Part shown: one piece after another, positions 1 to 49,462 of the stretch
Numbering within the stretch: position 1 is the stretch's first letter
Layout of the letters: each line of letters opens with the position of its first letter
Assembly: GCA_903821875.1 (NCBI GenBank)
Contig: CAIJMU010000188.1
Coordinates: 1-49,632 of the forward strand
Source of the DNA: an uncultured Spirochaetota bacterium
Lineage (GTDB): Bacteria > Spirochaetota > Spirochaetia > Treponematales > Rectinemataceae
Length of the DNA stretch: 49,632 nucleotides
Direction of reading: 5' to 3'
Notes under the pieces: generated by a model
What the model saw: only the letters and a program-made list of their open reading frames with translations
Databases searched by the model: none
What the model was told of the DNA's origin: nothing
Translations under genes and position numbers: made by a program

Positions 1-1876
1 GGATCTCGTAGACCATGCCCTCGCGATCGGTGAATTCCTTGAAGTCGTAGGTCTTGGCAAGGTCGGCGCGGATGCGGAACAGGGTCGGGTAGGAGAACAC
101 GATCTGCATGAAGGCCCCGGCCGGCACTGTTGCGGCAACCTTCTGGAAGTCCTGCTTGCCGATCTCGTAGGGAGGGATGACAAAGCGCGCGCCCTCGTCG
201 GCGACAAAGGCCGCTGCCCAGGAGTTGAAGGTGTAGAGCCAGGGGCCGGCCACCACGGTGAGATCCTCTCCCCTGGGGCCGGTCTTCCCGCGCAGCATGC
301 CGAGGTGGGCGACGTTGTTGGCAACGAAGAGGGTCTGGCCGCGTCCGACCCAGTAGGCGAGGGCCTCCTCGAGCCAGGGGGAATCGCCTTCGGGGAAGTA
401 GGGATCCAGCCAGAGCACCAGGGAGTCGCGCTTGAAGGGCAGCTCCTTCTCGTGCTTTCGCATGAGCTCCGCGTTCTTGCGGTCAAAGAAGATCATGGCC
501 TTGGTCGGCCGCTCGGACAAAAGGACGTGGAGGTCGCCGACCCTTCCAACCAATGCGTACAATCCCTCGGGAAGGGCCTTCAACGCCTCCCTCGACGGCT
601 TCGGGAAGGCGGGGAGCCTGGCCGAGTCGTGGCTCGGGAACTTGTGGTAGCGGCCGAGCTCCTTGGGCAGGACGGGCTTCCATCGCTTGCCCATCGAGCG
701 GGTCTGCACGAGATAGACCTCGTCGTTGACGCGGAAGTCACCCTCGAGACGGAGGTAGAGCCCCTTCGGGTTCTCCTTCACATCCTTGACCTTGAGGGTG
801 AGCCGGCCCGAGTCGTCCGCACGGTGCACACGGATGGAGTCGCCCTCGGCTACCCCAGCGACACCCACGCCGGCTGGCTTGCCGTCATCGGCATCCTTGG
901 GGGCTATGAGGGCCCACTGCCCGTCCTCGAAGGCCCGCACTTCGCGGACACGCCCCAGCTTGATACCCGTGCCTCCGGACTGCTCCGGCTTGATGAAACC
1001 CTCAGCGAAACTGCCGCCGATGTTGAAGCTGGTCTTTGACCGGGCGAAATCGGACTTTAAAAGGGACTGGGCCCTGGCAAGGGCACGGTCCGGATCGAGG
1101 CGCCAGTTGTCGAGCATGTAGCGATAGGCGGCCACGACAGCCCCCACGTATTCCTGGCTCTTGAGCCGTCCCTCGATCTTGAGGGAGGAAACGCCTGCTT
1201 CCACCAGTTCGGGGATGCGGGCGACGAGCTGGAGGTCGGCGGGCGAGAAGTAGTAACCGGAATCATCGTCGTTCGAGTACAGCCGCCTACAGGCCTGGGC
1301 GCAGAGCCCGCGGTTGGCGCTCTTCCCGCCGAGGTAACTCGAGAAGAGGCAGAGTCCCGAGGCGGAGACGCAGAGGGCGCCGTGCACGAAGGTCTCGACC
1401 TCGAGGTTGGTGCCCTGGGTAACCGAGCGGATCTCGTCGAGGGAAAGCTCGCGCGGCAGGACTACCCGCTTGAAACCCTGCCGCGAGAGGAAATTGGCTC
1501 CCTTGGCGGAACCGACGTTCATCTGGGTCGAGGCGTGGAGCCGGAGCTTCGGGAAGTTGTCGCGGGCGAGCTTGACCGTGCCAAGGTCCTGGACGATCAT
1601 CCCGTCCGGCCCCACGCGGTCGATATACTGGAGCAACTGGTACAATCTATCGGCCTCGCGGTCGGTGAAGACCGTGTTGACCGTCACATAGATCTTCTTC
1701 GAAGCCTTGTGGACCACCTCGGTGGCGGCCTCGAACTGGTTGAAGGCGAAATTCGAGGAGCGGATCCTGGCATTGAAGGTCTTGAGCCCGAGATAGACGG
1801 CGTCGGCCCCTTCGCCGAGGGCCGCGGAAAGCGCCTCGGGGTTACCGGCTGGCGCGAGGAGTTCTGCGGTTGACAT
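1..1876 (-). CDS. U32 peptidase-family protein, RlhA-like (3' end outside window)
   Basis: The first 625 residues are visible; the C-terminus lies beyond the window start. The N-terminal half carries the U32 hallmarks: LLAPAGNPE at the start, HASTQMN near residue 114, and four cysteines (about C169, C176, C192, C196) in FVHGALCV...NRGLCAQACR. In related proteins (RlhA, TrhP, UbiU/V) these cysteines hold an iron-sulfur cluster. The long C-terminal part fits the DUF3656-containing RlhA/YdcP branch (about 650 residues) better than the shorter TrhP branch. RlhA hydroxylates a 23S rRNA cytidine; that role is inferred here. The start ATG is followed directly by the conserved ELLAPAG. It is divergent from the TRAP operon, with about 175 bases between the starts. 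Confidence 0.88.
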   Translation of the reverse strand, partial: MSTAELLAPAGNPEALSAALGEGADAVYLGLKTFNARIRSSNFAFNQFEAATEVVHKASKKIYVTVNTVFTDREADRLYQLLQYIDRVGPDGMIVQDLGTVKLARDNFPKLRLHASTQMNVGSAKGANFLSRQGFKRVVLPRELSLDEIRSVTQGTNLEVETFVHGALCVSASGLCLFSSYLGGKSANRGLCAQACRRLYSNDDDSGYYFSPADLQLVARIPELVEAGVSSLKIEGRLKSQEYVGAVVAAYRYMLDNWRLDPDRALARAQSLLKSDFARSKTSFNIGGSFAEGFIKPEQSGGTGIKLGRVREVRAFEDGQWALIAPKDADDGKPAGVGVAGVAEGDSIRVHRADDSGRLTLKVKDVKENPKGLYLRLEGDFRVNDEVYLVQTRSMGKRWKPVLPKELGRYHKFPSHDSARLPAFPKPSREALKALPEGLYALVGRVGDLHVLLSERPTKAMIFFDRKNAELMRKHEKELPFKRDSLVLWLDPYFPEGDSPWLEEALAYWVGRGQTLFVANNVAHLGMLRGKTGPRGEDLTVVAGPWLYTFNSWAAAFVADEGARFVIPPYEIGKQDFQKVAATVPAGAFMQIVFSYPTLFRIRADLAKTYDFKEFTDREGMVYEI

Positions 1877-31779: not shown

Positions 31780-33023
31780 TGTCGCACCTCCCTGAAATCA
31801 TGTACCCGTCCCCGCTTGACTACCAGGGCCACCGCGTTGTTCCCCAGGCGATAGACGATATCCTCATAGCATGGAATATCCCAGAGCTGGAGGTCGGCGA
31901 GCATCCCTGGCGCGAGAGTGCCCCGGTCCTCGAGGGCAAGGGCCCGGGCTGCCCCTGAGGTGGAAGCAAGGAGCGCCTCCTCGGGAGAGAACCCGGAAAC
32001 CCTGCAGGCCAGCTGCATGACCGTCTGCATCGACTCCATCCAGCAGGCCGGGCAGAAATCGGTGGCCAGCGCCAACGTCATGCCTTCCTCGATCATGGCT
32101 CGGGCGTCGTATGGATGGGGATGCCTGACGGCGAAGTCGAGGCCCGGCATGAGGACGCCTACCGTCCCCGCCTTCGCGTAGGCGGCCATTTCGGCCCGAC
32201 TGGTGTAGTTGAGATGATCGGCCGAAACAGCCGGGAGTTCCGCCGCTACCTTCGAGCCTCCGACATTGGCGTAGGCATCGACATGGATCTTGGCTTTCAA
32301 GCCATGACGCAGGCCCGCCTCGAGAATCCTGCGTGATTCTTCGGCCGTGTAGTATCCTTCGTCGCAGTAGACGTCGCAAAATGAGGCGAGGCTCCCTGCC
32401 GCTGCCTGCGGGATCATCTCCGTGATAATGCTGTCGATATATTCGCTCCGCCCCTGGTCCAGCGGGAAGTCGTGGGCTCCGAGGAGGGTGCTGACAATAT
32501 CCACGGGCTGGGAACCATCGAGGTCGCGGTTCACCTCGAGAAGCTCCATCTCCTTCTGCGCCGAAAGCCCGTAACCACTCTTGCTCTCCAGCGTCGTCGT
32601 TCCAGCGCGGAACATCCGCGTGAGGATTTCCCGGGCATTGAATGCCAGTTCGCCCCTCGATACCGCCCGCGTCATGCTGACCGTTGCCTGGATACCCGTC
32701 GGAATGCCCATGGCCTTGACTTCTGCCGCAGTGCGCGTCATGCGGGCCGCGTACTCGGCCGCCCGCGAGCCGCCAAAGACGAGGTGTGTGTGGCAGTCCA
32801 CAAAGCCCGGTGCCAGTATGCCCCCTCGGAGCTCCAGTACCCGTGCCCCGGATAGGTCCCAATTGCACTCGAGTTCTGCCCGGCTCGCGATGGCGGCGAT
32901 GCACTCGCCTGCGATGGCCACCGCAGCGCCAGCTTTCCGGCCGAGTGCGTTTCCGGCTCCAGGAACGCAGGTCAGGACTTCCCCTGCGCCCGATATCAGG
33001 AGGTCGATCCGTGGCTTGGGCAT
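31776..33023 (-). CDS. hutI: imidazolonepropionase
   Basis: 415 residues. It hydrolyses imidazolone propionate to formiminoglutamate, the third step. It is an amidohydrolase-fold metalloenzyme: the metal-binding HxH is at 78-80 in FVDCHTHLVFGG, with further conserved residues in KIHVDAYAN and ADHLNYTS. It follows hutU by 7 bases and overlaps hutH. Confidence 0.96.
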   Translation of the reverse strand: MPKPRIDLLISGAGEVLTCVPGAGNALGRKAGAAVAIAGECIAAIASRAELECNWDLSGARVLELRGGILAPGFVDCHTHLVFGGSRAAEYAARMTRTAAEVKAMGIPTGIQATVSMTRAVSRGELAFNAREILTRMFRAGTTTLESKSGYGLSAQKEMELLEVNRDLDGSQPVDIVSTLLGAHDFPLDQGRSEYIDSIITEMIPQAAAGSLASFCDVYCDEGYYTAEESRRILEAGLRHGLKAKIHVDAYANVGGSKVAAELPAVSADHLNYTSRAEMAAYAKAGTVGVLMPGLDFAVRHPHPYDARAMIEEGMTLALATDFCPACWMESMQTVMQLACRVSGFSPEEALLASTSGAARALALEDRGTLAPGMLADLQLWDIPCYEDIVYRLGNNAVALVVKRGRVHDFREVRQ

Positions 33024-33030
33024 GGATCCC

Positions 33031-34785
33031 TCAGTCTTTCGTGTGCTTGCCGAGGCGGTCCTGCTTTCCCGTTTCGGGGCCGAAGGTCGCGGTGGGCGAC
33101 CACCAGAGCGGGATCTTGATGCTGTCGGTGGTAAGCGGACCCCTGCCCTCGCAGACTTCGCGCGAGCTTTCGTAGCCTGCCTGGGCGTGGCGCACGACGC
33201 CGATGCCCGAGTCGGTTGCCATGCAGACGTCGAGGCGGATGTCCGCTTCCTCGCTGCCGTCGGCGATCATGGTGACCCCTGTATGGACGGCCTCGCCCAT
33301 TGAGTAGTTGGCCTGGATGGCGACGAGGTCGGCCATGGCGGCAGTGTTCAGCAGTGCGTTGAGATAGGGCCAGTCGGAGATGAGGTCGCCGCCATCCTTC
33401 ATGTTCTCGGACTCGAAGGTGGGATTGACGATGGAGCCCGAGTCGAGGTTGTCGCGGGAAAATCCTACAGGACCAGCAAGTTCCCCTGATTTGATCAACT
33501 GGTTTATCTTGAGGGCCAGGGCCCGGCGCTCGCCGAAGCCGAGGTAGCAGACCCGGGCGGGCAGGCCCTCTATCGGAAGGGTCTTCCGTGCAAGCTCGAT
33601 CCATTTGACGGTGAGGCTGTCCTGGGGAAACATGTCCAGGACAAGTTGGTCGATCGTAGCCAGGTCACTGGCCTCTCCGGAGAGGCAGGTCCAGCGGAAG
33701 GGGCCCCGACCGAGCATGAAAAGTGGCCGGATGTAGGCTGCCACAAAGCCCGGGATGGTCATGGCTTCCTTTTCGGGCATGCCCGCGTCGCGGCACTCCT
33801 TCCTGATGCTTGTGCCGTACTCGAAGGCCACGACACCACGGCGCGAAAACTCGTTCATGGCAGAGAGCTGGCGCTTCATCGAACTGCGGGCTACCTCGAG
33901 GTACTCCCTGCGGTCGCTCTCGCGGAGCACAGCTGCTGACTCTATCGTATAACCTGCAGGAATGTAGGAGAAGGGGTCGTGGCAGGGGCACATCTCCGAG
34001 ACGATGTCCGGCTTCCAGCCGAGCTCGAGGGCCCTGGGAAAAAGCTCTGCCGCATTGCCCAGGACGCCGATGCCGAGGGATTTCTTCGCATCCTTGGCCT
34101 CATCGGCCATCCTGATGGCCGTCTCGAGGTCGGGAGCCTGCACATCGAGAAATTTACGTTCAATTGAACGCTTGATTATCCTGTCGTCCGCGTCGACGAT
34201 GACGCAGACACCGCCATGCATGGTCATGGCGCGCGGCTGGTTGCGCCCCATGCCGCCGAGACCGGCGGCGAAGTAGATGCGACCGACCAGGGAGCCGCCG
34301 AAGTGCCTGTCAGCCACTGCGCCAAGGGTCTCGAAGGTCCCCTGGATGACGCCCTGGGTGCCGATGTATTCCCAGGGGCCGGCGGTGTACTGGGCGAACA
34401 TCGTGAGGTTCCTGTCCTGGAGGTCGTAAAAGGTCTCCCAGGTAGCCTTCATGATATTGGTGTTGGCCATGACGACGCGGGGGGCCAGGCGGTGGGTCCT
34501 GAATATGGCTACAGGCATGCCCGACTGGACAACGAGGGTCTCGTTGTTTTCGAGCTCCTTGAGGGATTTCACGATGGCGTGGTAGCTCTCCCAGTTCCGG
34601 GCGCACTTGCCGATGCCGCCGTAGATCACCAGGCGCTCAGGCGCCTCGGCGACCTCCATGTTGTTCTCGAGCATGCGGAGAATCGACTCCTGTTTCCAGC
34701 CCTTGCAGCGGAGGGTCTTTCCCCGCTGCGCCTTCACCGAATAGAGGATCTCTGGCTTTCCTGCTGACATTGCTGTAGGCTCCAT
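33031..34785 (-). CDS. hutU: urocanate hydratase
   Basis: 584 residues. The NAD-dependent second step, urocanate to imidazolone propionate. The dinucleotide-binding signature is GLGGMGRNQP (about 175-184), and the catalytic cysteine region is RVCYLGFGER (C413). The C-terminal SRDNLDSGSI corresponds to the usual HLDSGSV segment. It is somewhat longer than the well-studied Pseudomonas enzyme, as in other anaerobes. ATG 34785 was chosen because AAGGAG lies 7 bases upstream; a second ATG 15 bases later is possible. Confidence 0.95.
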   Translation of the reverse strand: MEPTAMSAGKPEILYSVKAQRGKTLRCKGWKQESILRMLENNMEVAEAPERLVIYGGIGKCARNWESYHAIVKSLKELENNETLVVQSGMPVAIFRTHRLAPRVVMANTNIMKATWETFYDLQDRNLTMFAQYTAGPWEYIGTQGVIQGTFETLGAVADRHFGGSLVGRIYFAAGLGGMGRNQPRAMTMHGGVCVIVDADDRIIKRSIERKFLDVQAPDLETAIRMADEAKDAKKSLGIGVLGNAAELFPRALELGWKPDIVSEMCPCHDPFSYIPAGYTIESAAVLRESDRREYLEVARSSMKRQLSAMNEFSRRGVVAFEYGTSIRKECRDAGMPEKEAMTIPGFVAAYIRPLFMLGRGPFRWTCLSGEASDLATIDQLVLDMFPQDSLTVKWIELARKTLPIEGLPARVCYLGFGERRALALKINQLIKSGELAGPVGFSRDNLDSGSIVNPTFESENMKDGGDLISDWPYLNALLNTAAMADLVAIQANYSMGEAVHTGVTMIADGSEEADIRLDVCMATDSGIGVVRHAQAGYESSREVCEGRGPLTTDSIKIPLWWSPTATFGPETGKQDRLGKHTKD

Positions 34786-34811
34786 CCTGTTCTCCTTTGT
34801 TCCAATTGCGC

Positions 34812-35705
34812 TCAATCGATGAGCGCGTTCTCGATGATCTGATCCATCTTGAAGTCGTGTGCCTGGAGGTAGAACTTGACGAGTTCCTCGAGGGCACCCA
34901 GGGGAACCGGACCGACGAGTTCGGTGCCAGCCACCGCCACCCCGTAGCGACCCGCCTCCGAACGCACGGTCTCAAGGACGCGGTGGAGGGGCGTTCCACG
35001 GTAATCGACGAGGTTCATGGACACCTGCACCATGCCCTTGTCCTCAAGCGCCAGTCCCATGGCGCGCACGTGGCGGTAGCCTCCGTTGATGTGGCGTACG
35101 GCGCGGGCGATGCGTTCGGCGATGGAAAGGTCAGTGCTATGAAGATTCACGTTGAGGGCCACGAGGGGAAAGCGCACGCCGGTCACGAGGACCCCAGCCC
35201 TGGCATTGAAGGCGAAGGGACCCTCGTCGGGCTTCCAGGCCGGATCGAGCATCTTGGCCTCGAGGGCCTCGTACTGGCCCTTCCTGATGTCTGGCAGCTT
35301 GGCCCTCTCGGGCCGGGTCGCAGCCTCCTCGTAATAGTAGACCGGTACGCCAAGGCTTCCGATGTAGCGGCCGAAATCCCGGGCGAGCTCCACGGCTTCC
35401 TTGATCTCCATGCCGCGCACGGGGATAAAGGGCACGACGTCGACAGCGCCCTGGCGGGGATGGGAACCCCTGTGCCGGCCCATGTCGATGCGCTCCAGTG
35501 CCGCCTTCGCCATGTTTTTTGTGGCCAGAAGGACTGCGGCTGGCTCACCGAGGTAGGTGAAGACCGAGCGGTTGTGGTCGGCATCGGAGGAGACATCCAG
35601 GATGCGGATGCCCTCGACCTTCTGTATCTCGGCAAGCACTTCGCCGACGAGCCCGAGGTCGACGCCCTCGCTGATGTTGGGTTCGCAGAGTACTACCTTC
35701 TTCAT
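34812..35705 (-). CDS. ftcD: glutamate formimidoyltransferase
   Basis: 297 residues, matching the single-domain formiminotransferase (the N-terminal half of mammalian FTCD). It transfers the formimino group of formiminoglutamate to tetrahydrofolate and releases glutamate. Motifs: CEPNISEG at the start and GRHRGSHPRQGAVDVVPFIP around residue 80. The cyclodeaminase half is a separate gene immediately upstream in the operon. The hut route here therefore ends in glutamate and a folate one-carbon unit and not in formamide. Confidence 0.95.
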   Translation of the reverse strand: MKKVVLCEPNISEGVDLGLVGEVLAEIQKVEGIRILDVSSDADHNRSVFTYLGEPAAVLLATKNMAKAALERIDMGRHRGSHPRQGAVDVVPFIPVRGMEIKEAVELARDFGRYIGSLGVPVYYYEEAATRPERAKLPDIRKGQYEALEAKMLDPAWKPDEGPFAFNARAGVLVTGVRFPLVALNVNLHSTDLSIAERIARAVRHINGGYRHVRAMGLALEDKGMVQVSMNLVDYRGTPLHRVLETVRSEAGRYGVAVAGTELVGPVPLGALEELVKFYLQAHDFKMDQIIENALID

Positions 35706-35742: not shown

Positions 35743-36369
35743 TCAGGCCAGAATGCCGGGCAGAGCCGCGAGGGCTTCGCATCGCGAGCGACAGACAGTT
35801 GCCCGCAGGGCGATCGAGGCGGCGACACCCTCGTCCTTGAGCGAAGGCAGGTTGATGCTGACATTGTCGAGGCAGCCCAGGAGCCCGGCACGCGCAAGGT
35901 AGAGGCCCGAGCTGTAGTCGGAATAGACACTCGGGTTGACCCAGTCCTTGAGTTCGACTCCAAGTTCGAGGAGGGCCAGGCAGGCCTCCGCGTTTTCGAG
36001 GGGTTTGCCCGTCGCCCGGACCCAGGCAGCCTGCACTGCCAGCTGACGCTTCGCTTTTTCCGCCTCGCTGGCCTTGGGCAGCCTGTAGCTGTCGCGGACA
36101 GCCTGGAAGGCCTCGGTGTCTTCCCGGGCCCCCGCGCGGAGGCGCTGGGACAGGGCTATGGCACGCAGGGCCATGCCTTCAAAGGCAGCGTCATCCAGTT
36201 CGCCTGGCGGGGTACCTGCTGCGCTGCCGCCATTTTTCCGTATGCTCGGCCTGGAAAGCCTAGCCACCAGGGCGAGAAGGGCTCCCGCCATGGCGCCCGC
36301 TATGGCAGAAGCTGAACCACCCCCAGCAGAGCTATCGTCCGGATCGAGAACCTTCAGGTATGTTTCCAT
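35743..36369 (-). CDS. fchA: formimidotetrahydrofolate cyclodeaminase
   Basis: 208 residues. It converts 5-formimino-tetrahydrofolate to 5,10-methenyl-tetrahydrofolate plus ammonia. The glycine-rich N-terminus SSAGGGSASAIAGAMAGALL is the family's signature (PGGGS...AAL...). It is the first gene of the minus-strand hut operon; the start has GAGGTGAGC just before it. A palindromic operator candidate lies 15-34 bases upstream of the start, shared with the divergent regulator gene. Confidence 0.93.
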   Translation of the reverse strand: METYLKVLDPDDSSAGGGSASAIAGAMAGALLALVARLSRPSIRKNGGSAAGTPPGELDDAAFEGMALRAIALSQRLRAGAREDTEAFQAVRDSYRLPKASEAEKAKRQLAVQAAWVRATGKPLENAEACLALLELGVELKDWVNPSVYSDYSSGLYLARAGLLGCLDNVSINLPSLKDEGVAASIALRATVCRSRCEALAALPGILA

Positions 36370-36383
36370 GCTCACCTCGTATC

Positions 36384-36403
36384 TCGTATAGACGTATATA
36401 CGA
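36384..36403. promoter_or_regulatory. candidate HutC/GntR operator palindrome
   Basis: TCGTATA (36384-36390) and TATACGA (36397-36403) form a perfect inverted repeat with a 6-base spacer. The nested 10-base palindrome CGTATATACG is at 36393-36402. It resembles the TGTA/TACA-type sites bound by HutC regulators and sits between fchA and the divergent GntR gene. Binding is inferred. Confidence 0.55.
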
Positions 36404-36464
36404 GTACCATGGCACACTGGAGTCGTCAAGTGCTAGACGCACACTGAATCAAGGAGGGCTCTCC

Positions 36465-37226
36465 ATGGACACTCCATCGCCAAGGATCACCTCGGGGGCC
36501 ATACCCAAGTACCGCCAGCTCCTCATCATCCTCAGGAACCAGATCCTGGCCGGCCAGATAGCCCCTGGAGAGCGCATCCCCTCAGAGGAAGACCTTATCG
36601 GAAGCTATGGATTGAGCCGGGGCACAGTCCGCAACGCGATAGCCCAGCTCGAGGCTGAGAAGCTCATCGAGACCGAGCATGGCATCGGTTCCTTTGTCCG
36701 GGCCCTCCATCCCAGGGCCATACCCTTCCGCTTCCTGTCTGCATCGGAACAGGCGAGGACTACGGACCGGGAAGGACAGGAAAGCCCGGAAGGGGAATCC
36801 AGCTGCGAGACCCTCAAACAGGAGATCATTTCCGCGCCTTTGCAAATAGCCGAGCGCCTGCGATTGCTGCCGGGTTCGGCTGTCCTCCACCTCGCTCGCC
36901 GGAGGCGGGTCGGCGGCCTTCCTGTCTCGTATTCAGAGCGCTATCTCGAGGAGAGGCTCCTCCCGAGCCTGGCTACCGCAAACCTCGCTGGCATCGGCTC
37001 CATCCATGAACTCCTGGTCAGGAACTCCGACTACCCCCTGCTCAGGGCCGAGGTCGAGATAGAAGCCCATCTCCTCAACGAAGAGGAAGCCCTCCTCCTC
37101 GAAACCGCTCCGGGAGAGCCGGCCTTTGTCGTCCACAGGATTACCTACACGGCGCCGAACAAGCCGGCTGTCTGGTACTACGGACTATTCAAGAACCGGT
37201 ATGAATTGGGGGTGGGGATTCCGTGA
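36465..37226 (+). CDS. GntR/HutC-family regulator of the hut operon
   Basis: 253 residues. The N-terminal winged helix (PKYRQLLIILRNQILAGQIA, RIPSEEDLIGSYGLSRGTVR) is the GntR DNA-binding domain. Residues about 95-250 form a UTRA ligand-binding domain (LPVSYSERYLEERLLP). By position, divergent from the histidine-degradation genes, it is probably their repressor, responding to urocanate or a downstream metabolite as HutC does. The start has AAGGAGG. Its 3' end overlaps the end of the convergent phosphodiesterase gene by 38 bases. Confidence 0.9.
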   Translation: MDTPSPRITSGAIPKYRQLLIILRNQILAGQIAPGERIPSEEDLIGSYGLSRGTVRNAIAQLEAEKLIETEHGIGSFVRALHPRAIPFRFLSASEQARTTDREGQESPEGESSCETLKQEIISAPLQIAERLRLLPGSAVLHLARRRRVGGLPVSYSERYLEERLLPSLATANLAGIGSIHELLVRNSDYPLLRAEVEIEAHLLNEEEALLLETAPGEPAFVVHRITYTAPNKPAVWYYGLFKNRYELGVGIP

Positions 37227-39829: not shown

Positions 39830-40963
39830 CTAACTTGCTGCTGCTTCCTCTTCGACGGCCAAAGCGGTCGGGGAGGCATCAGGCTTCGTGAGGATGACTG
39901 CCTCGGGAGGGATGCCGAGTCTCACGCGTTCGCCCAGGCCAGGGAAGCCCCGGCGGGGGTCGTTGAAGGCGTCGACCGAGAGTTCGTGCCTACCTACCGC
40001 CACCATCAGACGCACGATGGAACCCAGGAGCTTGATGTTGACAAGCTCGCCTTCGAGGAAGTTAGGCGCGCCACTGGCGCACACGCCACTGGCACCGGTG
40101 ACAGCGCCATCGAGTGAAAGGGCCTCGGGCCGGAGGCTCAAGCACAGTTCCTCGCCTGCCCTCCCCTCGAGCTTCCTGCCCGCCGAGATGGTCTGCCCCT
40201 CGACCATGATCGAGCCGGTCTCCGGGTCGACGAGCTTCGCAGTTAGGACGTTGAGGGTACCGATGAAACTGGCCACATAGGCTGTCGCAGGTCGGTTGTA
40301 GATCTCGAAGGGGGCGCCGATCTGCTCGATGAGGCCGTCCCGCATCACTGCCACCCGGTCGGAGATGGACAGCGCCTCTTCCTGGTCGTGCGTGACGTAG
40401 ATCGTCGTGATGCCGAGCCGCCGCTGGATCTTCCTGATCTCGTCGCGGAGCTTGACGCGGATCTTCGCGTCGAGGGCCGAAAGGGGCTCGTCCAGGAGGA
40501 GGGCGCGGGGCGCGATGGCGAGGGCACGGGCGAGGGCGACACGCTGCTGCTGCCCACCGGAGAGCTGGTGCGGATAACGTTGGGCGAACTCGCCCATGTT
40601 GATCAGGTCCAGCATCTCATCGACGCGCGATGCCACCTCGCTTCCTTTTTTCCCCGCGATGTCGAGGCCGAAGGCGATGTTCTTGCCAACTGTCATGTTC
40701 GGGAAGAGGGCGTAGTTCTGGAAAACCATGCCGAGGTTCCGCTTGTTGGGCGGCACCGCCGAGAGCTCCTCTCCGTCGATCCGGATGGTCCCGGAGCTCT
40801 GGGTCTCGAAACCCGCAATCATGCGCAGTGTCGTCGTCTTGCCGCAGCCCGAGCCACCGAGAAGTGAGACGAACTCACCCTTCTCGACGTCGAGCGAGAG
40901 CCCCTTCACGACAGTGTTCTTCCCGAAGCTCTTCACTATCTCCCGTAGTTCAAGGAATGCCAT
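39830..40963 (-). CDS. ABC transporter ATP-binding protein (PotA/FbpC type)
   Basis: 377 residues. All nucleotide-binding motifs are present: Walker A GGSGCGKTTT, Q-loop QNYALFPNMTV, signature LSGGQQQRVALARAL, Walker B LLLDEPLSALD and H-loop VTHDQEEAL. A C-terminal TOBE-type region follows. It powers the importer formed with the two permeases upstream. The family (MOI/POPT-type) covers iron, polyamine, phosphonate and related substrates. It is the last gene of the minus-strand operon. Confidence 0.95.
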   Translation of the reverse strand: MAFLELREIVKSFGKNTVVKGLSLDVEKGEFVSLLGGSGCGKTTTLRMIAGFETQSSGTIRIDGEELSAVPPNKRNLGMVFQNYALFPNMTVGKNIAFGLDIAGKKGSEVASRVDEMLDLINMGEFAQRYPHQLSGGQQQRVALARALAIAPRALLLDEPLSALDAKIRVKLRDEIRKIQRRLGITTIYVTHDQEEALSISDRVAVMRDGLIEQIGAPFEIYNRPATAYVASFIGTLNVLTAKLVDPETGSIMVEGQTISAGRKLEGRAGEELCLSLRPEALSLDGAVTGASGVCASGAPNFLEGELVNIKLLGSIVRLMVAVGRHELSVDAFNDPRRGFPGLGERVRLGIPPEAVILTKPDASPTALAVEEEAAAS

Positions 40964-40985
40964 GCGTATTCTCCTGCATTCTGTT

Positions 40986-41774
40986 TCAGTGGCCGCCGGC
41001 GCCGATGCCGGAACCCTTGTCTTTGGCCGATCGGGTCAGGAGCTGGATGAGGCCGATGGCTCCCCAGGTTAGGCCGAAGCTCATGATCGCGAGGGCCGCC
41101 GGCTCGTAGGCGCGGTTCCTTCCCATGAGGGCCATGTAGGGACCGAAGGCCGGCCAGGCAAGGAGGACTGCGAGGGTAAGTTCACCTATGACAATGGCCA
41201 GGGTAAGGAAGGTCGCCGAGAGCAAGGCTGTCCTCAGGTTCGGCAGCACTACACGGAAGAGGAGGCTGCCCCAGCCCGCTCCGAGGCTCTGTGCGGCCTC
41301 TGAAAGTCCGCGCAGGTCCATCGAGCGAAGCCCCGAATCCACCGAGCGGTAGATGTAGGGGAAGGAGATGACCACATAGGCCGCAACAAGGATGGCAGGC
41401 GTCGAGACAAGGGCCAGGGGTGGCCTGGAGTAGGTCCTGATGAGGCCGAAGGCGAGGATGATGGGCGGAACCGCGAAGGGCATAAGTGTAAGCACGTCAA
41501 AAAGGGCCTTGGCCTTGGGCACCTTGAGCTGGATCCAGATCGCCGTGGGCACAATGAGGATGAGCCCGACGAGGACAGTGAGCAGGGCCATCTCGAGGGA
41601 AAAGCCGAAGGTCTTGAGGAAGGTCGGGTCCTTGAAGACGTTCTGGTAGGCGACAAAGGACAGGACGCCTTTTTTCCCGCGCAGGGAAAAGAGGAAGGTC
41701 GCAAAGAGGGGAAGGAAGAAATAGATCATCCCGACGGAAAACCAGAGCCAGGAAAGCCAGGTCCTTCGCTTCAT
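40986..41774 (-). CDS. ABC transporter permease (second)
   Basis: 262 residues, six predicted membrane helices, with the cytoplasmic coupling (EAA) loop EAAQSLGAGWGSLLFRVVLP. The start MKRRTWLSWLWF overlaps the stop of the first permease by 4 bases (ATGA). A long upstream open frame in the same phase is an antisense artefact. Confidence 0.93.
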   Translation of the reverse strand: MKRRTWLSWLWFSVGMIYFFLPLFATFLFSLRGKKGVLSFVAYQNVFKDPTFLKTFGFSLEMALLTVLVGLILIVPTAIWIQLKVPKAKALFDVLTLMPFAVPPIILAFGLIRTYSRPPLALVSTPAILVAAYVVISFPYIYRSVDSGLRSMDLRGLSEAAQSLGAGWGSLLFRVVLPNLRTALLSATFLTLAIVIGELTLAVLLAWPAFGPYMALMGRNRAYEPAALAIMSFGLTWGAIGLIQLLTRSAKDKGSGIGAGGH

Positions 41775-42736
41775 TTGACCCACCTCGAACTTATTTTCTG
41801 AAGCCAGGAATAGAAGAGGATGCTGACCGTCATCACTATGACCATGCCGAAGGCCAGCGCGTAGCCGAGCTGCGGATCGTGGAGGACATTGCCCCTGATC
41901 TGGGCGCCGATCAGGATCGGCACGATGTTTATGAGGCCGCCGGTGAGGGCGTAGGCCGTCGCGTAGGCACCGAAGGCATTGCCGAAGAGAAGTATGAGGG
42001 CCGCGAGGATGGAGGGGAGGAGGACAGGGATGCCGACGCGAGTCCAGTACTGGAGGCTCGAGGCGCCCAGGCTTTCGCTGGCCTCCCTCCATTCCTTCTT
42101 CATGCCCTCGAGGGCAGGTTCAATTATGAGGATCATGAGGGGAATCTGGAAGTAGGTGTAGGTCAGGGTGAGGCCCCAGAAGCTGTAGAGGTTGAAGCCC
42201 GTGTTGTAGAGCTCGAAACCGAAGAGGGTCCGGAGAAGGACCGTGAGAAATCCCATTCGGCCGAGGGTGGCGATGAAGGCGAAGGCCAGGGGCACGCCTG
42301 CGAAATTGGAGGCTACGCCTGAGAAGGTCGACATGAAGGTCTTCAGGGACTTCGGAAGGCCTCCTATCGAGATCGCATAGGCGATGAGGAGGCCCAGGAT
42401 TCCTCCGAGGAGGGCGGTCGTCGCGCTTACCTTCATGGTGACGAGGTAGGAGTCGAGGATGCTTGGCTTGAAGAGGTTGGCCAGGTTGTCGAGGGTGAAG
42501 GACCCCGCCTCGTTCTGGAAGGAACCGATCACGATCGAGCTCGCGGGGAGGATCATGAAGAGAAGGGCGAAGAGAAGGAAGGGCAGCAATCCGAGCCAGG
42601 CCCAGGACAGCTTCCTTCCCGGAGCGACAACGCGCGGCCCCGGTCCGTCGGCGAGCCTTCGCCGTGCGTCCGGGGCCGGCGGCAAGGATATGCCGGGCAT
42701 ATCCTTGCCTACGCTCCGCTCGATGCGAGCGGCCAT
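41771..42736 (-). CDS. ABC transporter permease (first)
   Basis: 321 residues with six membrane helices after an unusual N-terminal tail of about 40 polar residues. The coupling loop is REASESLGASSLQYWTRVGI. The tail (SVGKDMPGISLPPAPDARRR) is encoded by a perfect 29-base palindrome and GC-rich sequence, so the true start may lie further in. The ATG at 42736 has only a weak ribosome binding site. It follows the binding-protein gene by 9 bases. Confidence 0.88.
   Translation of the reverse strand: MAARIERSVGKDMPGISLPPAPDARRRLADGPGPRVVAPGRKLSWAWLGLLPFLLFALLFMILPASSIVIGSFQNEAGSFTLDNLANLFKPSILDSYLVTMKVSATTALLGGILGLLIAYAISIGGLPKSLKTFMSTFSGVASNFAGVPLAFAFIATLGRMGFLTVLLRTLFGFELYNTGFNLYSFWGLTLTYTYFQIPLMILIIEPALEGMKKEWREASESLGASSLQYWTRVGIPVLLPSILAALILLFGNAFGAYATAYALTGGLINIVPILIGAQIRGNVLHDPQLGYALAFGMVIVMTVSILFYSWLQKISSRWVK
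42681..42709. repeat. perfect 29-base palindrome at the SBP-permease boundary
   Basis: GGCAAGGATATGCC, one G, then GGCATATCCTTGCC: 14 paired bases. It is 37 bases after the binding-protein stop. In mRNA it would form a very stable hairpin, the type that protects or separates the more abundant binding-protein message from the permease message. Confidence 0.7.
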
Positions 42737-42745
42737 GATCGTCGC

Positions 42746-43834
42746 CTACTTCTTCTGGATGTTGGCGCCGACTATCTTGTCCCAGCCCTCTGCGATCGCC
42801 TTGGACGCGGCGGTCTGCTCAGCGAGCGAGGGGAACACGGCCTTAGCGTAGGCTGCGGAGGGCGGGAGCTTGGCCTCGACATCCGCGGGAATGACCTTGC
42901 GCTTGGCCATGTCATTGAAGCGGACCGGGTGCCCGTAACCCTTGAGCCAGATGATCTGGCCTTCGTCGGAATAGATGTACTCCATCCAGAGCTTGGCAGC
43001 GTTCGGGTGAGGAGCGTAGGCGCTGATTGCCTGGATGTAGACGCCGGCGACAACGCCGGTCGAGGGAATGACGACTTCGATGTTGGGGTTGCCGGCAAGG
43101 GTGTCCTTGTTGGCGAGGGCATTGTAGTCCCACTCGATCGTGATCGGGGTCTCGCCTGATGCGAGGGTACCAGACACCGCGATGAGTGGCACGAGATTGC
43201 CGACCTTGTTCATCTTGGCAAAGAACTCGAGGCCCTTGCTGACGTCTGAGGGGTTCTTGGCTCCATTGGCCAGGGAGGCAGCTACAACGGTCATGTAGGC
43301 CTGGGCGGAGATGCGGGGATCGCCGGCAAGGGCAAACTGGCCCTTGTACTCGGGCTTAAGGAGGTCGGCCCAGGTCCTCGGGACATTCTTGATGATATCG
43401 GTGTTGACTTCGAAGGCGAGGGCGCCGTAGTAGTCGCCGTACCAATAGCCATCCTTGTCCTTGACGGAGTCAGGAATGCTGGCCCAGGTGGAGACCTTGT
43501 AGGGGGCGAGGAGGCCGGCAGCCTTGGCCTCGGGTCCGAACTTGAGGCCGACATCGATGACGTCAGGAGCCTGGGGACCGGTGTTGCCCTTGTTGGCCTT
43601 GATCGCCTCGATCTCCTCGGCGGAGGAGCCGTCGGGATTGAGCTCGTTGACCGTGATGCCGTATTTTGCCGAGAATTTCTCGATCATCTCGCCGTAGTTG
43701 ACCCAATTATGGGGGAGGGCGATGACAGTCAGCTGCCCTTCTTTCTGGGCGGCGGTGATAAGGGCGCTGGACTGGCCAAAGGCGCCGATCGCAACAAGGG
43801 CGACGAGGGCTACGAATACGGTTGCTCTTTTCAT
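42746..43834 (-). CDS. ABC transporter solute-binding protein
   Basis: 362 residues. A signal peptide (MKRATVFVALVALVAIGAFG) has no lipobox, so the protein should be free in the periplasm. The mature part reads KEGQLTVIALPHNWVNYGEM and WADLLKPEYKGQFALAGDP, typical of the iron/polyamine/2-aminoethylphosphonate-type binding proteins (family 1). The ligand is unknown. It is the first gene of the four-gene operon and is divergent from the molybdenum-hydroxylase operon. GGAGG precedes the start. Confidence 0.92.
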   Translation of the reverse strand: MKRATVFVALVALVAIGAFGQSSALITAAQKEGQLTVIALPHNWVNYGEMIEKFSAKYGITVNELNPDGSSAEEIEAIKANKGNTGPQAPDVIDVGLKFGPEAKAAGLLAPYKVSTWASIPDSVKDKDGYWYGDYYGALAFEVNTDIIKNVPRTWADLLKPEYKGQFALAGDPRISAQAYMTVVAASLANGAKNPSDVSKGLEFFAKMNKVGNLVPLIAVSGTLASGETPITIEWDYNALANKDTLAGNPNIEVVIPSTGVVAGVYIQAISAYAPHPNAAKLWMEYIYSDEGQIIWLKGYGHPVRFNDMAKRKVIPADVEAKLPPSAAYAKAVFPSLAEQTAASKAIAEGWDKIVGANIQKK

Positions 43835-44134: not shown

Positions 44135-44704
44135 ATGCCTGACAAGAAAGACGATGTCGCCACTGCCATCCCCGGGCTGCCCGACAGGGCTCCTGCCCAG
44201 CCCAGCGGAATCCGCATCAAGGTCAATGGAACGTGGCGCGACTTCAGGCTCGAGGGTGACCTCAACGCCGCCACGACCCTGGCCTACGTCCTAAGGGAAA
44301 AACTGGGCTTCACGGGCCTCAAGGTTTCCTGCGACGAGGGCGCCTGCGGCGCCTGCACGGTCATCATGGACGGCAAGGCCATTCTTTCGTGCATGGTCCT
44401 GGCTGTAGAGGCGGAGGGGCACGAGATCCTGACAGTCGAAGGGCTGCCCAAGGACGATCCCGTCGTCGAGGCCTTTGCAGAGCAATCGGAGCCTGGCTAC
44501 GGTACAGCCCTGCAGTGCGGCTACTGCACCCCCGGTTTTGTCATGACGTCGCGCGCCCTCCTCAACGCGAACCCGACGCCCACCCTCGAAGAGGTCAAGG
44601 ACGCCCTGGCGGGAAACATCTGCCGCTGCGGCTGCTATGCCGGTATTGCCCAGGCAGTCCTGCGCGCCTCAGAAAAAATCGCCGCGCGAAGGAGGGCCTC
44701 ATGA
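44135..44704 (+). CDS. molybdenum hydroxylase [2Fe-2S] subunit
   Basis: 189 residues. It carries two [2Fe-2S] clusters that pass electrons between the molybdenum and FAD subunits. The plant-type cluster uses C66, C71, C74 and C86 (SCDEGACGACTV...SC); the second uses C128, C131, C163 and C165 (QCGYCTPG ... NICRCGCYAG), with an extra C167. The N-terminal 25 residues are an added tail. GGAAGGA precedes the start. Its stop overlaps the next start by 4 bases (ATGA). Confidence 0.95.
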   Translation: MPDKKDDVATAIPGLPDRAPAQPSGIRIKVNGTWRDFRLEGDLNAATTLAYVLREKLGFTGLKVSCDEGACGACTVIMDGKAILSCMVLAVEAEGHEILTVEGLPKDDPVVEAFAEQSEPGYGTALQCGYCTPGFVMTSRALLNANPTPTLEEVKDALAGNICRCGCYAGIAQAVLRASEKIAARRRAS

Positions 44705-47064
44705 TAGAGAGATACAAGCCCCGAGTTCCGCGCAAATTCGTCGGCGGCTATCGGCCCAAGATCGACGGAGCGGAAAAGGCGAGCGGAAGGGCCCAGTACG
44801 CCGATGACATGACGCTCAAGTCGCGATTCCCCGACCTCCTCTACGCCAAGATCCTCCGCAGCCCCTACCCCAGCGCGCGCATCGTGAAATTCGACACAAC
44901 TAAAGCAAAGGCCCTGTCCGGTGTAGCTGCTGTCATGACCTATCAGGACGAGGAGTTCTCCTCCCTGAAGCTCACCAACGCGGGCTGGACAGACTGTGTG
45001 GACACCGTCACCTGGGACCGCATGATGTTCCCCTTCCGCGACCGACGCGTGCTGGGCGAGTACGCAAGCTGGGTCGGCGACGAGATGGGCATTGCCGTTG
45101 CGGCCGAGACCGAGGAGATAGCCGACGAGGCCCTGCGGCTGATCGACATCGAGTGGGAGACGCGGCCCTTTGTGCTCGATCCGATCGTCGCAATGCAAAA
45201 GGATGCGCCCCTGGTCCATCCGGACCTCAACACGAGCAACATCCTCCCCCCCGACCCGACAGGTGGCCCGGACATCTTCGAGGATCGCGGCAACGTCGAC
45301 GAGGATTTTGCGAAGGCCGAGGTCATCGTCGAAGGCACATCGACCTTCCACAACGCGAACCAGGGCGCCATGGACGCCTGGTGCTGCGTCATGCACTGGA
45401 AGGACGAGCAGCTTACCGCCTGGTCCAATTCCTATGCCGCCGACCAGCTCAGGATGCACCTCGGCGAGATGCTCGGCCTCCCCCTCCACAAGATCCGCGC
45501 CATCGCCTCGTACATAGGCGGCCAGTTCGGCCGTGGCGACACCGGCGACCAGCCCTTCTTCCTGGTGTCCAGCCTCCTGTCGATGAAGACAGGCAGGCCG
45601 GTGAAATACAGGATGACGCGTCACCAGAGCTTCCTCAACACCCGTCAGCCTGCCATCTATAGCTTCAAGGCAGGGGCAAAACGGGACGGGACCATCACCT
45701 CCCTGTACACCAAGGCTATCGGCAATGTCGGAGCCTACGCCGACCTGTCCATGTTCGCCCTCAAGTTCGTGCCCAAGGAACTCTCGGAGGTCTTCATGGC
45801 CCACATCCCCAACCTGCGGATGGAAGCCTACGGCGTGTACGCGAACAACATCCCCGGCTGCATGATGCGCGGCGTGGGAAACTCCCAATTCAACCTTGTT
45901 TTTGCCCACTTCATGGATGCGATGTCCGAGAAGCTGGGCATGGATCCCATGGATTTCTGCATTAGGAATTTCGCCCACGAATGGGAAAAGCTTCCGAGCG
46001 AAAGCCTCGTCGAGGTCCTGAAAATCGGTGCCGCGCGCCTGGGCTGGAAGGAAAAGCGGCACGTGCCGGGCAAGGGAGAGGTCTACGACGGAGTCAAGAA
46101 GCGGGGCGTCGGTTTCTCCTGCCATCCTTCCTGGCACGCTGAGTGGCAGGAAAAACGCCGGGGCAAGGTCCAGGTCAACCTGACCCTCAACCCGGATTGC
46201 ACGGTCCTGCTCAACGCAGCCACCATCGAGGTCGGCGGCGGATCCAACACCTGCAATGTCCTCGGATGCGCCGAAGCCCTGGGCTTCCTTGGTATTGGTA
46301 TCGATGACATCTTCTGGAGTCCCATAGTGGACACCAAGGACGGCATCAAGGACTGCGTGCAGACTGACAGTGCCGTTTCCTTCCTCCAGTCCGAGGTCAT
46401 GGTCGACTCGGCCAAGGAATTGAAAGAAAGGCTCAGGGAAGTCGCCGCCGAGATACTGAAGCTCGCGCCCTCGGAAATCGACTTCGAGGATGGCAGGGTA
46501 AGGATTGCATCCAAGCCTGAGTTCACCATGACGGTGAAGGAACTCCTCCGGAAAGGCGACAACGCGCCCATCACAGTCGCCAAGAGCCGCTCTCCTGACG
46601 TCAAGCTCACCGGCGTCCCCTTCTTCGCGAACTTTGCCGAGGTGGAAGTCGACACGAGCACAGGCAAGGTCGAGGTACTGAAGCTGGTTGTCGTCAACGA
46701 CTGCGGCACGGTGATGTACGCCTCAGGGGCCGAGGGACAGCAGATAGGCGGCCAGTGCATGGGAATGGGTGAGGCCCTGACCGAAGAACTCATCTACGAC
46801 CAGGCCACGGGTAAACCCCTCAACTTCAACTGGGTGGACTACACCATCCCGACGATGGCGGACATGCCCGAGATCGATCCGGTCCTCCTCGAAGTCTGGC
46901 GCGGCACAGGGGAATACGGCGCCTGCGGCATCGGCGAGGGCACAGTGTCCTGCACGCCGGGAGCCATCTCCAACGCCATCTACAACGCCATAGGGGTCAG
47001 GCTCAACCACATTCCGATCAAGCCGGAAAAGGTCCTGGAAGCCCTGGAAAAGGTCCGGGGGTAA
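44701..47064 (+). CDS. molybdenum hydroxylase large (molybdopterin) subunit
   Basis: 787 residues, the size of 4-hydroxybenzoyl-CoA reductase HcrA and related xanthine dehydrogenase-family subunits. It binds the molybdenum cofactor and the substrate. Motifs: GGQFGRGD (273-280, usually GGxFGxK), MMRGVGNSQFNLVFAHFMDA, and GACGIGEGTVS near 740-750, where the glutamate aligned with the catalytic base of the family is present. The substrate cannot be read; GIGEG differs from the common GVGEP. No maturation factor (XdhC-like) is seen in the window. Confidence 0.92.
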   Translation: MIERYKPRVPRKFVGGYRPKIDGAEKASGRAQYADDMTLKSRFPDLLYAKILRSPYPSARIVKFDTTKAKALSGVAAVMTYQDEEFSSLKLTNAGWTDCVDTVTWDRMMFPFRDRRVLGEYASWVGDEMGIAVAAETEEIADEALRLIDIEWETRPFVLDPIVAMQKDAPLVHPDLNTSNILPPDPTGGPDIFEDRGNVDEDFAKAEVIVEGTSTFHNANQGAMDAWCCVMHWKDEQLTAWSNSYAADQLRMHLGEMLGLPLHKIRAIASYIGGQFGRGDTGDQPFFLVSSLLSMKTGRPVKYRMTRHQSFLNTRQPAIYSFKAGAKRDGTITSLYTKAIGNVGAYADLSMFALKFVPKELSEVFMAHIPNLRMEAYGVYANNIPGCMMRGVGNSQFNLVFAHFMDAMSEKLGMDPMDFCIRNFAHEWEKLPSESLVEVLKIGAARLGWKEKRHVPGKGEVYDGVKKRGVGFSCHPSWHAEWQEKRRGKVQVNLTLNPDCTVLLNAATIEVGGGSNTCNVLGCAEALGFLGIGIDDIFWSPIVDTKDGIKDCVQTDSAVSFLQSEVMVDSAKELKERLREVAAEILKLAPSEIDFEDGRVRIASKPEFTMTVKELLRKGDNAPITVAKSRSPDVKLTGVPFFANFAEVEVDTSTGKVEVLKLVVVNDCGTVMYASGAEGQQIGGQCMGMGEALTEELIYDQATGKPLNFNWVDYTIPTMADMPEIDPVLLEVWRGTGEYGACGIGEGTVSCTPGAISNAIYNAIGVRLNHIPIKPEKVLEALEKVRG

Positions 47065-47068
47065 GGCA

Positions 47069-49462
47069 ATGGGAATGCGCAAATTCAGCCACGTGTCTGC
47101 AAAGTCCGTCGATGACGCCGTTGCCTTGAAAGGCCAATTCCGCAGGCGCGCGGTGGTCGTGGCAGGAGGCACCGATATCCTGGGGATCCTGAAGGACGAG
47201 GTCCACCCGGTATATCCCCACGTCCTCATAGATATGAAGACCATCGAGGGTCTCGGCTACATCCGCGAGGAAGGTGGCAGCCTGAGGATCGGCGCACTGG
47301 CGACCCTGGCCGAAATAGCCACGAACGAAACGGTGCGAAGGGAATATCCTCTGCTCGCCGAAGCGGCGCACGCGGTGGCCTCGCCCCAGCTCAGGAACAT
47401 GGGTACAATTGGCGGCAATATCTGCCAGGAACCCCGGTGCTGGTACTACCGGAACCTCGAGAACGGCTTCCACTGCCTCCGGAAGGGTGGAGACAAGTGC
47501 CCCGCCCTCACAGGAGAGAATCGCTTCCATTCGATCTTCGGTTCGATGCGGGTGGGGCGGGCGGGCTGCTCCTCGGGTTGTCCCGACAACATCGACATAC
47601 CACGGTACATGGAAAGGATGAGGGCCGGGGACATCGCGGAGGCAGGGCGGATCATCCTCGAGAACAATCCGATGCCGGCTGTCACCGGACGCGTCTGTCC
47701 GCATTTCTGCGAGCAGGCCTGCAACCGCAGCGAAGAGGACAGCGCGGTTTCCATCCGTGCCGTCGAACGCCGTATTGGCGACTATATCCTCGAAAATCCC
47801 AGCGCCTACTCCAAACCGCCGGCAAAGGAAAACGGAAAGCGGGTCGCTGTCGTCGGCGGAGGGCCTGCAGGCCTGTCCTGTGCGCATTACCTGCGCCTGC
47901 AAGGCTTCGCCGTAACCATCTACGACAAGCAGCCACAGTTAGGCGGCATGCTCCGCTATGGCATCCCCGATTTCCGGCTTTCCCAGGGAGTGCTGGACAA
48001 GGAGATCGACTTTCTCCTTTCCCAGGGGATCACGGCGAAGACAGGCGTGCAACTCGGCCGGGACTTTACCCTCGACAGCCTGAAAAGCGAGGGCTTCGAC
48101 GCGGTATTCCTGGGTCTAGGTTCCTGGCTCGCAAAAGGCCTGGGGGTCGAGAACGACAGGCACGAGAGGATCATTTCCGGAATCGCCTATCTTGAGGGCG
48201 TAAAGTGGAACGGGCCACCCGCCTTAAGCGGTACGGTCGCCATTGTCGGCGGAGGCAATACCGCGATCGACGCCGCCAGGACAGCCCTCCGCTGCGGCGC
48301 CAAAAAGGTTGTCCTCCTCTATCGCCGGACCCGCGATGAGATGCCTGCGGAGGAAGAGGAGATCGAGGATGCGATCAGGGAAGGGGTCGAGCTGCAATTC
48401 CTTGTTTCCCCGAAAAAGATCGCCCTCGATGGCAAGGACCTTGTAGGCCTCGAGTGCTGCGCGATGCGGCTCGGCGAGAGCGATGCCTCGGGACGCCCGC
48501 GCCCTGTCGAAATCAAGGGCAGCGAGTTCCTCTTCGAGGCGGACTGGGTAATCTCGGCGATTGGCCAGGACCAGAACCTCCTGGGCCTCGACAACAAAAC
48601 ATATGGAACCATCACGCTCACCAAGGGGAACGGCATCGATGCCGATCCTGAAACCATGCAGACCAGTGTGGCTGGCGTCTTCGCTGGCGGGGATGTCACA
48701 ACCGGGCCGGCTACCGTGGTCGAGGCCCTTGCCGCGGGCAGAAAGAGCGCCCAGAGCATCGAGCGCTATCTATCTGGCGGAAAGGTCCCGGCGGCGGAAA
48801 AACCCGGCACAGTGGAAAAGCTCAGGCCGATCAATTCAGGCTCGCTGGGGAAATCAGATCGCGCACGCGTCCTGGAAGTCGAAGCCTGCGACCGCTGCAT
48901 GGACAGGGAAGACTACCTCACGCTGGAGGACGGAAGGGCAATTACGGAAGCCCATCGCTGCCTCGATTGTAGCTGTGTAGCAGTCAACGCTTCGGACATT
49001 GCGCCTGCCCTCGTGGCACTGGGAGCGACTATCACGACCAGCCGGCGTAGCGTCGCCGCAGAGGATTTTTTCACGGTCGCTCTTATGGGCACCACGGTCC
49101 TCGCCGTCGACGAACTCGTTACCGAAATCTCCATTCCTGCTCCCAAGCCAGGCATCCGTTTCAGCTTCCAGAAGTTCAGGGTGCGCAATTCCATCGACTT
49201 CCCCATCGTCAGCGTCGCCTCGGCGCTCCGCTTCGAGGGGGGGAAGATCAAGGAGGCGCGGGTCGTGTTTGGCGCAGTCGCACCAATCCCCCTTCGCGCC
49301 GTGAACGTCGAAGAATTCCTGGTCGGCAAGGCGGCGAGCGAAGAGACAGCGGAACTGGCCGGCGCTGTAGCAGCCAAGGAGGTATTCCCCCTGGAAAGGA
49401 ATCGCTACAAGGTACAGATCCTGAGGGCGCTGATCAGGAAGGCCCTGTTAGCCTGTTCCTGA
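47069..49462 (+). CDS. FAD subunit with inserted GltD/NfnB-like NAD(P)H-FAD-[4Fe-4S] module
   Basis: 797 residues, against about 290-330 for the normal FAD subunit. Residues 1-158 are the first half of the FAD-binding domain (VVVAGGTDILG; RNMGTIGGNICQEPRCWYYR). Residues about 159-635 are a GltD/NfnB-like oxidoreductase. It has cysteines C167, C171, C210, C214 and C218 (CSSGCPDNIDIP; VCPHFCEQACNR), an FAD site (VAVVGGGPAGLS), an NAD(P) site (VAIVGGGNTAIDAARTALRC), GVFAGGDVTTGPATVVEAL, and C607, C610, C631 and C634. Residue 636 resumes the FAD subunit (CVAVNASDIAPALVALGA) and the C-terminal domain (to 797). The reading frame is uninterrupted. The start is 4 bases after the large-subunit stop. 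The module should feed or drain electrons via NAD(P)H; direction is unknown. Confidence 0.92.
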   Translation: MGMRKFSHVSAKSVDDAVALKGQFRRRAVVVAGGTDILGILKDEVHPVYPHVLIDMKTIEGLGYIREEGGSLRIGALATLAEIATNETVRREYPLLAEAAHAVASPQLRNMGTIGGNICQEPRCWYYRNLENGFHCLRKGGDKCPALTGENRFHSIFGSMRVGRAGCSSGCPDNIDIPRYMERMRAGDIAEAGRIILENNPMPAVTGRVCPHFCEQACNRSEEDSAVSIRAVERRIGDYILENPSAYSKPPAKENGKRVAVVGGGPAGLSCAHYLRLQGFAVTIYDKQPQLGGMLRYGIPDFRLSQGVLDKEIDFLLSQGITAKTGVQLGRDFTLDSLKSEGFDAVFLGLGSWLAKGLGVENDRHERIISGIAYLEGVKWNGPPALSGTVAIVGGGNTAIDAARTALRCGAKKVVLLYRRTRDEMPAEEEEIEDAIREGVELQFLVSPKKIALDGKDLVGLECCAMRLGESDASGRPRPVEIKGSEFLFEADWVISAIGQDQNLLGLDNKTYGTITLTKGNGIDADPETMQTSVAGVFAGGDVTTGPATVVEALAAGRKSAQSIERYLSGGKVPAAEKPGTVEKLRPINSGSLGKSDRARVLEVEACDRCMDREDYLTLEDGRAITEAHRCLDCSCVAVNASDIAPALVALGATITTSRRSVAAEDFFTVALMGTTVLAVDELVTEISIPAPKPGIRFSFQKFRVRNSIDFPIVSVASALRFEGGKIKEARVVFGAVAPIPLRAVNVEEFLVGKAASEETAELAGAVAAKEVFPLERNRYKVQILRALIRKALLACS

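Follow-up and report, generated by a model that had tools for sequence, protein, structure and literature searches.

A GltD/NfnB-like flavoenzyme module nested in the FAD subunit of a xanthine-oxidase-family molybdenum enzyme

In 4-hydroxybenzoyl-CoA reductase (HcrABC; chain 1rm6_B), the aldehyde oxidase PaoABC (5g5g_B) and the Methylobacillus aldehyde oxidase (5y6q_B), the FAD subunit carries a [4Fe-4S] cluster in an extra cysteine loop. A different redox module, the GltD-like domain, occurs in StnC, where its FAD passes electrons from NADPH into a line of [4Fe-4S] clusters and is non-bifurcating (PMC10482914). Fusions of redox modules at the ends of proteins are common; here we describe a gene in which a whole flavoenzyme sits inside the cluster loop of another. 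A search of the open-access literature found no description of this nesting; an apparent co-mention of the domains (PMC6637259) turned out to concern two separate E. coli proteins.

The nested gene and its operon

The window, that is, the whole stretch of 49,632 nucleotides from an uncultured Spirochaetota bacterium that was analysed, contains at 47069-49462 (+) a frame of 797 codons plus stop, open throughout with no internal stops. Pfam searches, solved chains, the genome scan and an AlphaFold model jointly identify the product as a nested FAD subunit. Four Pfam domains were detected in the protein, all above the curated cut-offs: FAD_binding_5 (PF00941) at residues 5-120, Fer4_20 (PF14691) at 164-243, Pyr_redox_2 (PF07992) at 258-557 and CO_deh_flav_C (PF03450) at 701-794. 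The first and the last of these belong to the two parts of the FAD subunit. The N-terminal part (residues 1-162; 47069-47554, +), recognized by PF00941 and invariant residues, contains the flavin motifs AGGTD and TIGGN as well as C119, C124, C136 and C144, and the C-terminal part (637-797; 48977-49459, +) is defined by PF03450, the flank alignment and the model. Both flanks match the solved chains 5y6q_B, 1rm6_B and 5g5g_B, and, when joined (1-162 plus 635-797), align with them over most or all of the joined length.

Between the flanks lies the inserted module (residues 163-636; 47555-48976, +), which combines Fer4_20 and Pyr_redox_2 with two Rossmann glycine motifs and the predicted ligands of two [4Fe-4S] clusters, namely, seven invariant cysteines and E233, and matches solved NfnABC, StnC, NfnB and GltD chains across 164-637. 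It ends with the junction motif RCLDCSC (residues 630-636; 48956-48976, +), which is invariant in 77/77 family members and the cysteines of which were assigned with the help of a motif relocation test and an empty-site comparison (see below). The insert's own C-terminal RCxxCxC motif stops exactly at C636, so that, judged by sequence, this cysteine is common to both modules. The preliminary description, made from the window alone, had reported an FAD subunit split between C144 and C636 by about 475 residues of a complete module; the split, the cysteine numbering and the completeness of the module hold, and only the size of the insert is corrected, to about 474 residues.

An AlphaFold model of the intact protein, built from a 63-sequence alignment and, like all such models, lacking cofactors, reached a pLDDT of 90 and a pTM of 0.87. 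It matched 5y6q_B with Z 37.7 over model residues 3..797, 1rm6_B with Z 35.6 and 5g5g_B with Z 34.9, whereas the best matches of the inserted part were the NfnABC/StnC chains 9bov_A (Z 48.6 over 158..680) and 8oh5_C (Z 47.0). Confidence was low around the loop cysteines (pLDDT 62-74 in blocks 121-150). In the model, both folds are completed within one chain, and the domain matches, the joined-flank alignment and the match to 5y6q_B agree that the PF00941 and PF03450 halves complete a single FAD subunit of the xanthine oxidase family, as had been proposed. By fold and ligands, the protein is an HCR/PaoB-type FAD subunit and a GltD/NfnB module at once; the 474 residues inserted after the third loop cysteine and before the fourth set it apart from the uninterrupted HCR/PaoB type.

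The nested gene is the last of three in the operon, following those for the Fe-S and molybdenum subunits. The small 2x[2Fe-2S] subunit (44135-44704, +; PF01799, PF00111), for which ATG 44135 was chosen as the start codon, retains all eight cluster cysteines. The molybdenum cofactor-binding subunit (44701-47064, +; 787 aa; PF01315, PF02738, PF20256), to which the closest solved chain is 1rm6_A, retains the catalytic glutamate, E746. Upstream, a divergent ABC importer (39830-43834, -), recognized by domain matches and consisting of an ATPase, two permeases and a solute-binding protein of the 2-aminoethylphosphonate/polyamine type, is a possible importer of the substrate, linked to the operon by position alone. 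Farther away, histidine-utilisation genes (30220-35705, -) encode an aromatic amino acid lyase, an amidohydrolase, urocanase and formiminotransferase, and beside them lies a GntR/UTRA regulator (36360-37226, +); no sign of a link between the histidine-utilisation genes and the molybdenum operon was seen.

The gene order is conserved. At every locus of the first scan with enough upstream sequence, the molybdenum gene is directly upstream of the nested gene, and the Fe-S gene usually precedes it. TRAP and ABC transporters and amidohydrolases recur among the neighbours, but no shared pathway was found among the recurrent neighbour families, and the neighbourhood was dropped as a clue to the substrate.

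Distribution and origin of the nested family

The genome scan returned 80 independent loci, nearly all matching over the full length of the query. Among the encoded proteins, 77 could be aligned, and the same 12 cysteines are invariant in every one of them (77/77). Because these are sequences from independent genomes that share the invariant cysteines, chance and the artefactual joining of two genes in sequencing or assembly are excluded as explanations of the nested gene. The hosts span about a dozen phyla, including Spirochaetota, Thermodesulfobacteriota, Myxococcota, Bdellovibrionota, Elusimicrobiota, Chloroflexota, Actinomycetota, Bacillota and Verrucomicrobiota; most of the loci come from metagenome-assembled genomes, and taxon labels are those deposited. 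Its carriers include Lachnospiraceae of the gut as well as lineages from groundwater and sediment. The prevalence of the family in the sampled genomes is about 2%, with nested genes in 5 of 198 Spirochaetota genomes, 5 of 299 genomes from the family of a Lachnospiraceae locus and 4 of 150 genomes in the Elusimicrobiota set. A plasmid search yielded GltD-type matches only and no nested gene. At two loci (L084:6003-8279 and L087:6003-8318), the nested gene is broken into two frames, possibly through an assembly frameshift or gene decay.

The partners of the nested protein vary. In a Thermoleophilia genome (L076:3264-8442), the molybdenum subunit is fused in frame ahead of the nested protein, giving a chain of 1726 aa. 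This is the only true fusion of the kind; three other candidates (L083, L067 and L030) were discarded because their long frames come from reading out of frame ahead of the actual gene. At three loci (L189-L191), the nested protein is paired with molybdenum subunits that are just 26-27% identical to that of the window and 41-43% identical among themselves. At the most unusual locus (L192:4338-9367; contig G547:C22), the nested gene follows two others. One encodes a small Fe-S protein in which the plant-type [2Fe-2S] cysteines are kept but the second set is lost; the other encodes an FrdA-like flavoprotein of 632 aa. No MoCoBD_2 match was found in this genome, the completeness of which is not stated, and L192 is an apparent, provisional case of molybdenum-free reuse of the nested module. 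Tentatively, one might see in the nested protein a portable unit for NAD(P)H input, passed between the main molybdenum family, the molybdenum family of L189-L191 and the fumarate reductase-like flavoprotein of L192.

Uninterrupted relatives, 40-52% identical to the joined flanks, have the four loop cysteines and nothing between the third and the fourth. One such loop reads CQKPRCWYYRGEFHCLRKGG..C......H.IFG...C[YF]IVHPSD, whereas the nested loop reads CQEPRCWYYR...HCLRKGG..C....H.IFG...[insert]...RCxxCxCVAVNASD. The insert therefore separates loop cysteines three and four, and the latter is kept as C636. In alignments with solved chains and uninterrupted relatives, C124, C136, C144 and C636 correspond to the four loop cysteines, in agreement with the preliminary description, and sequence and predicted fold are both consistent with its proposal that the four share one site. 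The nested and uninterrupted forms coexist in two genomes (G201 and G283). Of the three uninterrupted relatives closest to the flanks, two (L132 and L133) have separate NuoE/NuoF-like genes near the FAD gene, and the remaining one (L134) lies on a short contig. This suggests that a stand-alone NADH module can feed the corresponding loop in uninterrupted relatives. The NuoF-like and NuoE/HoxU-like genes at L132:11785-13914 and L133:12050-14391 lie near un-nested HCR-type molybdenum enzymes.

A flank tree of 107 rows unites the nested sequences (87/97; 90% of bootstrap trees), and a tree of the inserts with ten GltD relatives likewise keeps the nested inserts together (support 0.894). Pairwise tree distances are correlated between flank and insert (r 0.63), flank and molybdenum subunit (r 0.83) and insert and molybdenum subunit (r 0.54), each with p 0.001 in permutations. 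Because the nested forms group in both trees, the simplest reading of these phylogenies, given the moderate support in the flank tree, would be a single insertion event followed by joint inheritance and transfer.

Cluster ligands and the proposed electron path

One of the 12 invariant cysteines, C119, is probably not a ligand, because it is absent from the solved relatives 5y6q_B and 5g5g_B and is replaced by Phe in the diverged L192 protein, in which the other eleven cysteines and E233 are kept. Without C119, exactly 4 + 3 + 4 cysteine ligands plus the glutamate remain; E233, along with R303, is invariant in the 63-row alignment. The eleven cysteines and E233 fit three [4Fe-4S] clusters, the assignment being deduced from alignments. 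The loop cluster would be held by C124, C136, C144 and C636, the proximal cluster by C171, C210, C214 and E233, and the distal cluster by C167, C218, C631 and C634. The split between proximal and distal ligands was derived from the alignment to StnC. It also follows the ligands of dihydropyrimidine dehydrogenase.

The division of the junction motif between two clusters is suggested by non-nested proteins. Among 40 non-nested GltD-type relatives scored with a simple pattern, EAxRCLxC is N-terminal in 19, C-terminal in 19 and present at both ends in just 2. Such relatives may or may not have the third cysteine of RCxxCxC, which is invariant among the nested proteins. This pattern would assign C631 and C634 to the distal cluster and leave C636 for the loop cluster. 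C634 and C636, two residues apart, would then hold neighbouring clusters, and their proximity would fuse two electron-transfer chains into one wire through a CxC motif. The proximal cluster may differ in its properties from that of StnC, because position 233 is mostly Lys rather than Glu in the closest relatives of the insert that have the C-terminal motif. In StnC, the equivalent of E233 is K170, whereas NfnB has a Glu ligand there (PMC10482914), as does the window protein.

The operon encodes a three-subunit molybdenum hydroxylase or reductase of the xanthine oxidase family in which the complete GltD/NfnB-like insert most likely serves as an NAD(P)H port through the [4Fe-4S] loop. NAD(P)H would reduce the FAD of the insert, from which electrons would pass via the proximal, distal and loop [4Fe-4S] clusters to the FAD of the host subunit and on, through the two [2Fe-2S] clusters of the small subunit, to molybdenum, or in reverse. 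We infer both this path and the use of NAD(P)H; the empty-site comparison and the domain content uphold the earlier proposal that the insert lies in the cluster loop and supplies the enzyme with an NAD(P)H module of its own. The insert would replace the ferredoxin or the separate NADH dehydrogenase partner of uninterrupted relatives; the FAD of the host subunit might, in addition, react with a partner of its own. The motif at the nucleotide site (residues 418-420; window 48320-48328) varies, reading YRR in 15/77 members, with YRRT in the clade of the window, and CLE in most (56/77). Nucleotide preference probably differs between the two, with YRR(T) being NADPH-like and CLE NADH-like.

The preliminary description had also raised the possibility that the insert, as an NfnB-type module, bifurcates electrons and is coupled to ferredoxin. 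On this reading, oxidation of NAD(P)H would drive the reduction of both ferredoxin and the hydroxylase. The idea found no support and is very unlikely. The fold and the FAD-site arginine R303 do match NfnB, as does E233, which corresponds to its Glu ligand, but R303 also matches R239 of StnC, the FAD of which is reported to be non-bifurcating (PMC10482914). Furthermore, NfnA, which carries FAD and [2Fe-2S] and forms the high-potential branch, is not among the recurrent neighbour families, as judged from adjacent genes, and the two clusters of the insert form a single line into the host subunit, the only evident exit for electrons. A plain NAD(P)H port is favoured because StnC is non-bifurcating and no NfnA-type neighbour recurs.

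The direction of flow is less clear-cut. The same wire could run backwards, such that the substrate is oxidized and the insert hands electrons to NAD(P)+; this variant of the port, not exclusive with it, is a distinct possibility, if short of probable. Most enzymes of the xanthine oxidase family are oxidative, PaoB (5g5g), with the same loop cysteines, belongs to an oxidase, and some of the host lineages include aerobes. Conversely, the closest solved molybdenum subunit is that of the reductive 4-hydroxybenzoyl-CoA reductase, and three extra clusters exceed the needs of an NAD+-reducing hydroxylase, although neither point is decisive. The conserved E746 of the molybdenum subunit is common to both reaction directions.

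Domain insertions can be structural, and in HCR the electron donor is ferredoxin (PMC12771579); conceivably, the covalent joining could serve assembly or stability only, with the electrons of the molybdenum centre still entering or leaving through ferredoxin at the loop cluster. We consider this highly improbable because a purely structural insert would lose its ligands and motifs, whereas the proposed ligands and the FAD and nucleotide motifs of the insert are all kept in very diverged members. Most likely, then, the nested protein is a built-in wire from the molybdenum enzyme to the NAD(P)H pool of the cell. The nesting points to a way in which molybdenum reductases, otherwise reliant on ferredoxin, could tap NAD(P)H. 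Close uninterrupted relatives, some of them in the same genome, are available for comparison and make the family well suited to clean tests of electron transfer across a built-in splice.

Comparison with known systems

The XdhD-YgfM-YgfK cluster of E. coli, involved in uric acid degradation, encodes a GltD-like flavoenzyme alongside a molybdenum hydroxylase and its FAD subunit. We do not regard YgfK as an earlier example of such a module serving XdhD: published work shows that it is a separate enzyme, which reduces 2,8-dioxopurine, and it is not nested in YgfM (PMC12507026). The urolithin C dehydroxylase Ucdh of Enterocloster, likewise a three-subunit reductase of the xanthine oxidase family, uses NADH, and its FAD subunit is described only as having FAD (PMC12771579).

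HcrABC (PDB 1rm6) shares with the window's enzyme the three-subunit layout, the four-cysteine loop in the FAD subunit and the closest solved molybdenum chain, but its FAD subunit is uninterrupted and is fed by ferredoxin. Against the HCR equivalogs of NCBIfam, the window proteins score far below the cut-offs (162 vs 404.55 for TIGR03195, 368.3 vs 994.55 for TIGR03194 and 137.3 vs 257.8 for TIGR03193). PaoABC (5g5g) and the Methylobacillus enzyme (5y6q) have the same four loop cysteines and align with the joined flanks over nearly their whole length; these are aldehyde oxidases without the insert.

The best structural match to the insert is the large subunit of StnC/NfnABC (8oh5, 9bov, 9n5u), which shares the GltD-like domain, the C-terminal RCLxCxC, FAD and two [4Fe-4S] clusters. 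There, however, the GltD-like domain is flanked by a NuoG-like and an FdhF-like domain and supplies a bifurcating module that is separate from it, whereas the N-terminal [2Fe-2S]/NuoG domains and the FdhF-like C-terminus are absent from the domain set of the 797-aa protein. NfnB, GltD and the N-terminal module of dihydropyrimidine dehydrogenase share with the insert Fer4_20, Pyr_redox_2 and the proximal and distal ligands, but have RCxxC at the N-terminal end and either stand alone or are fused to other partners.
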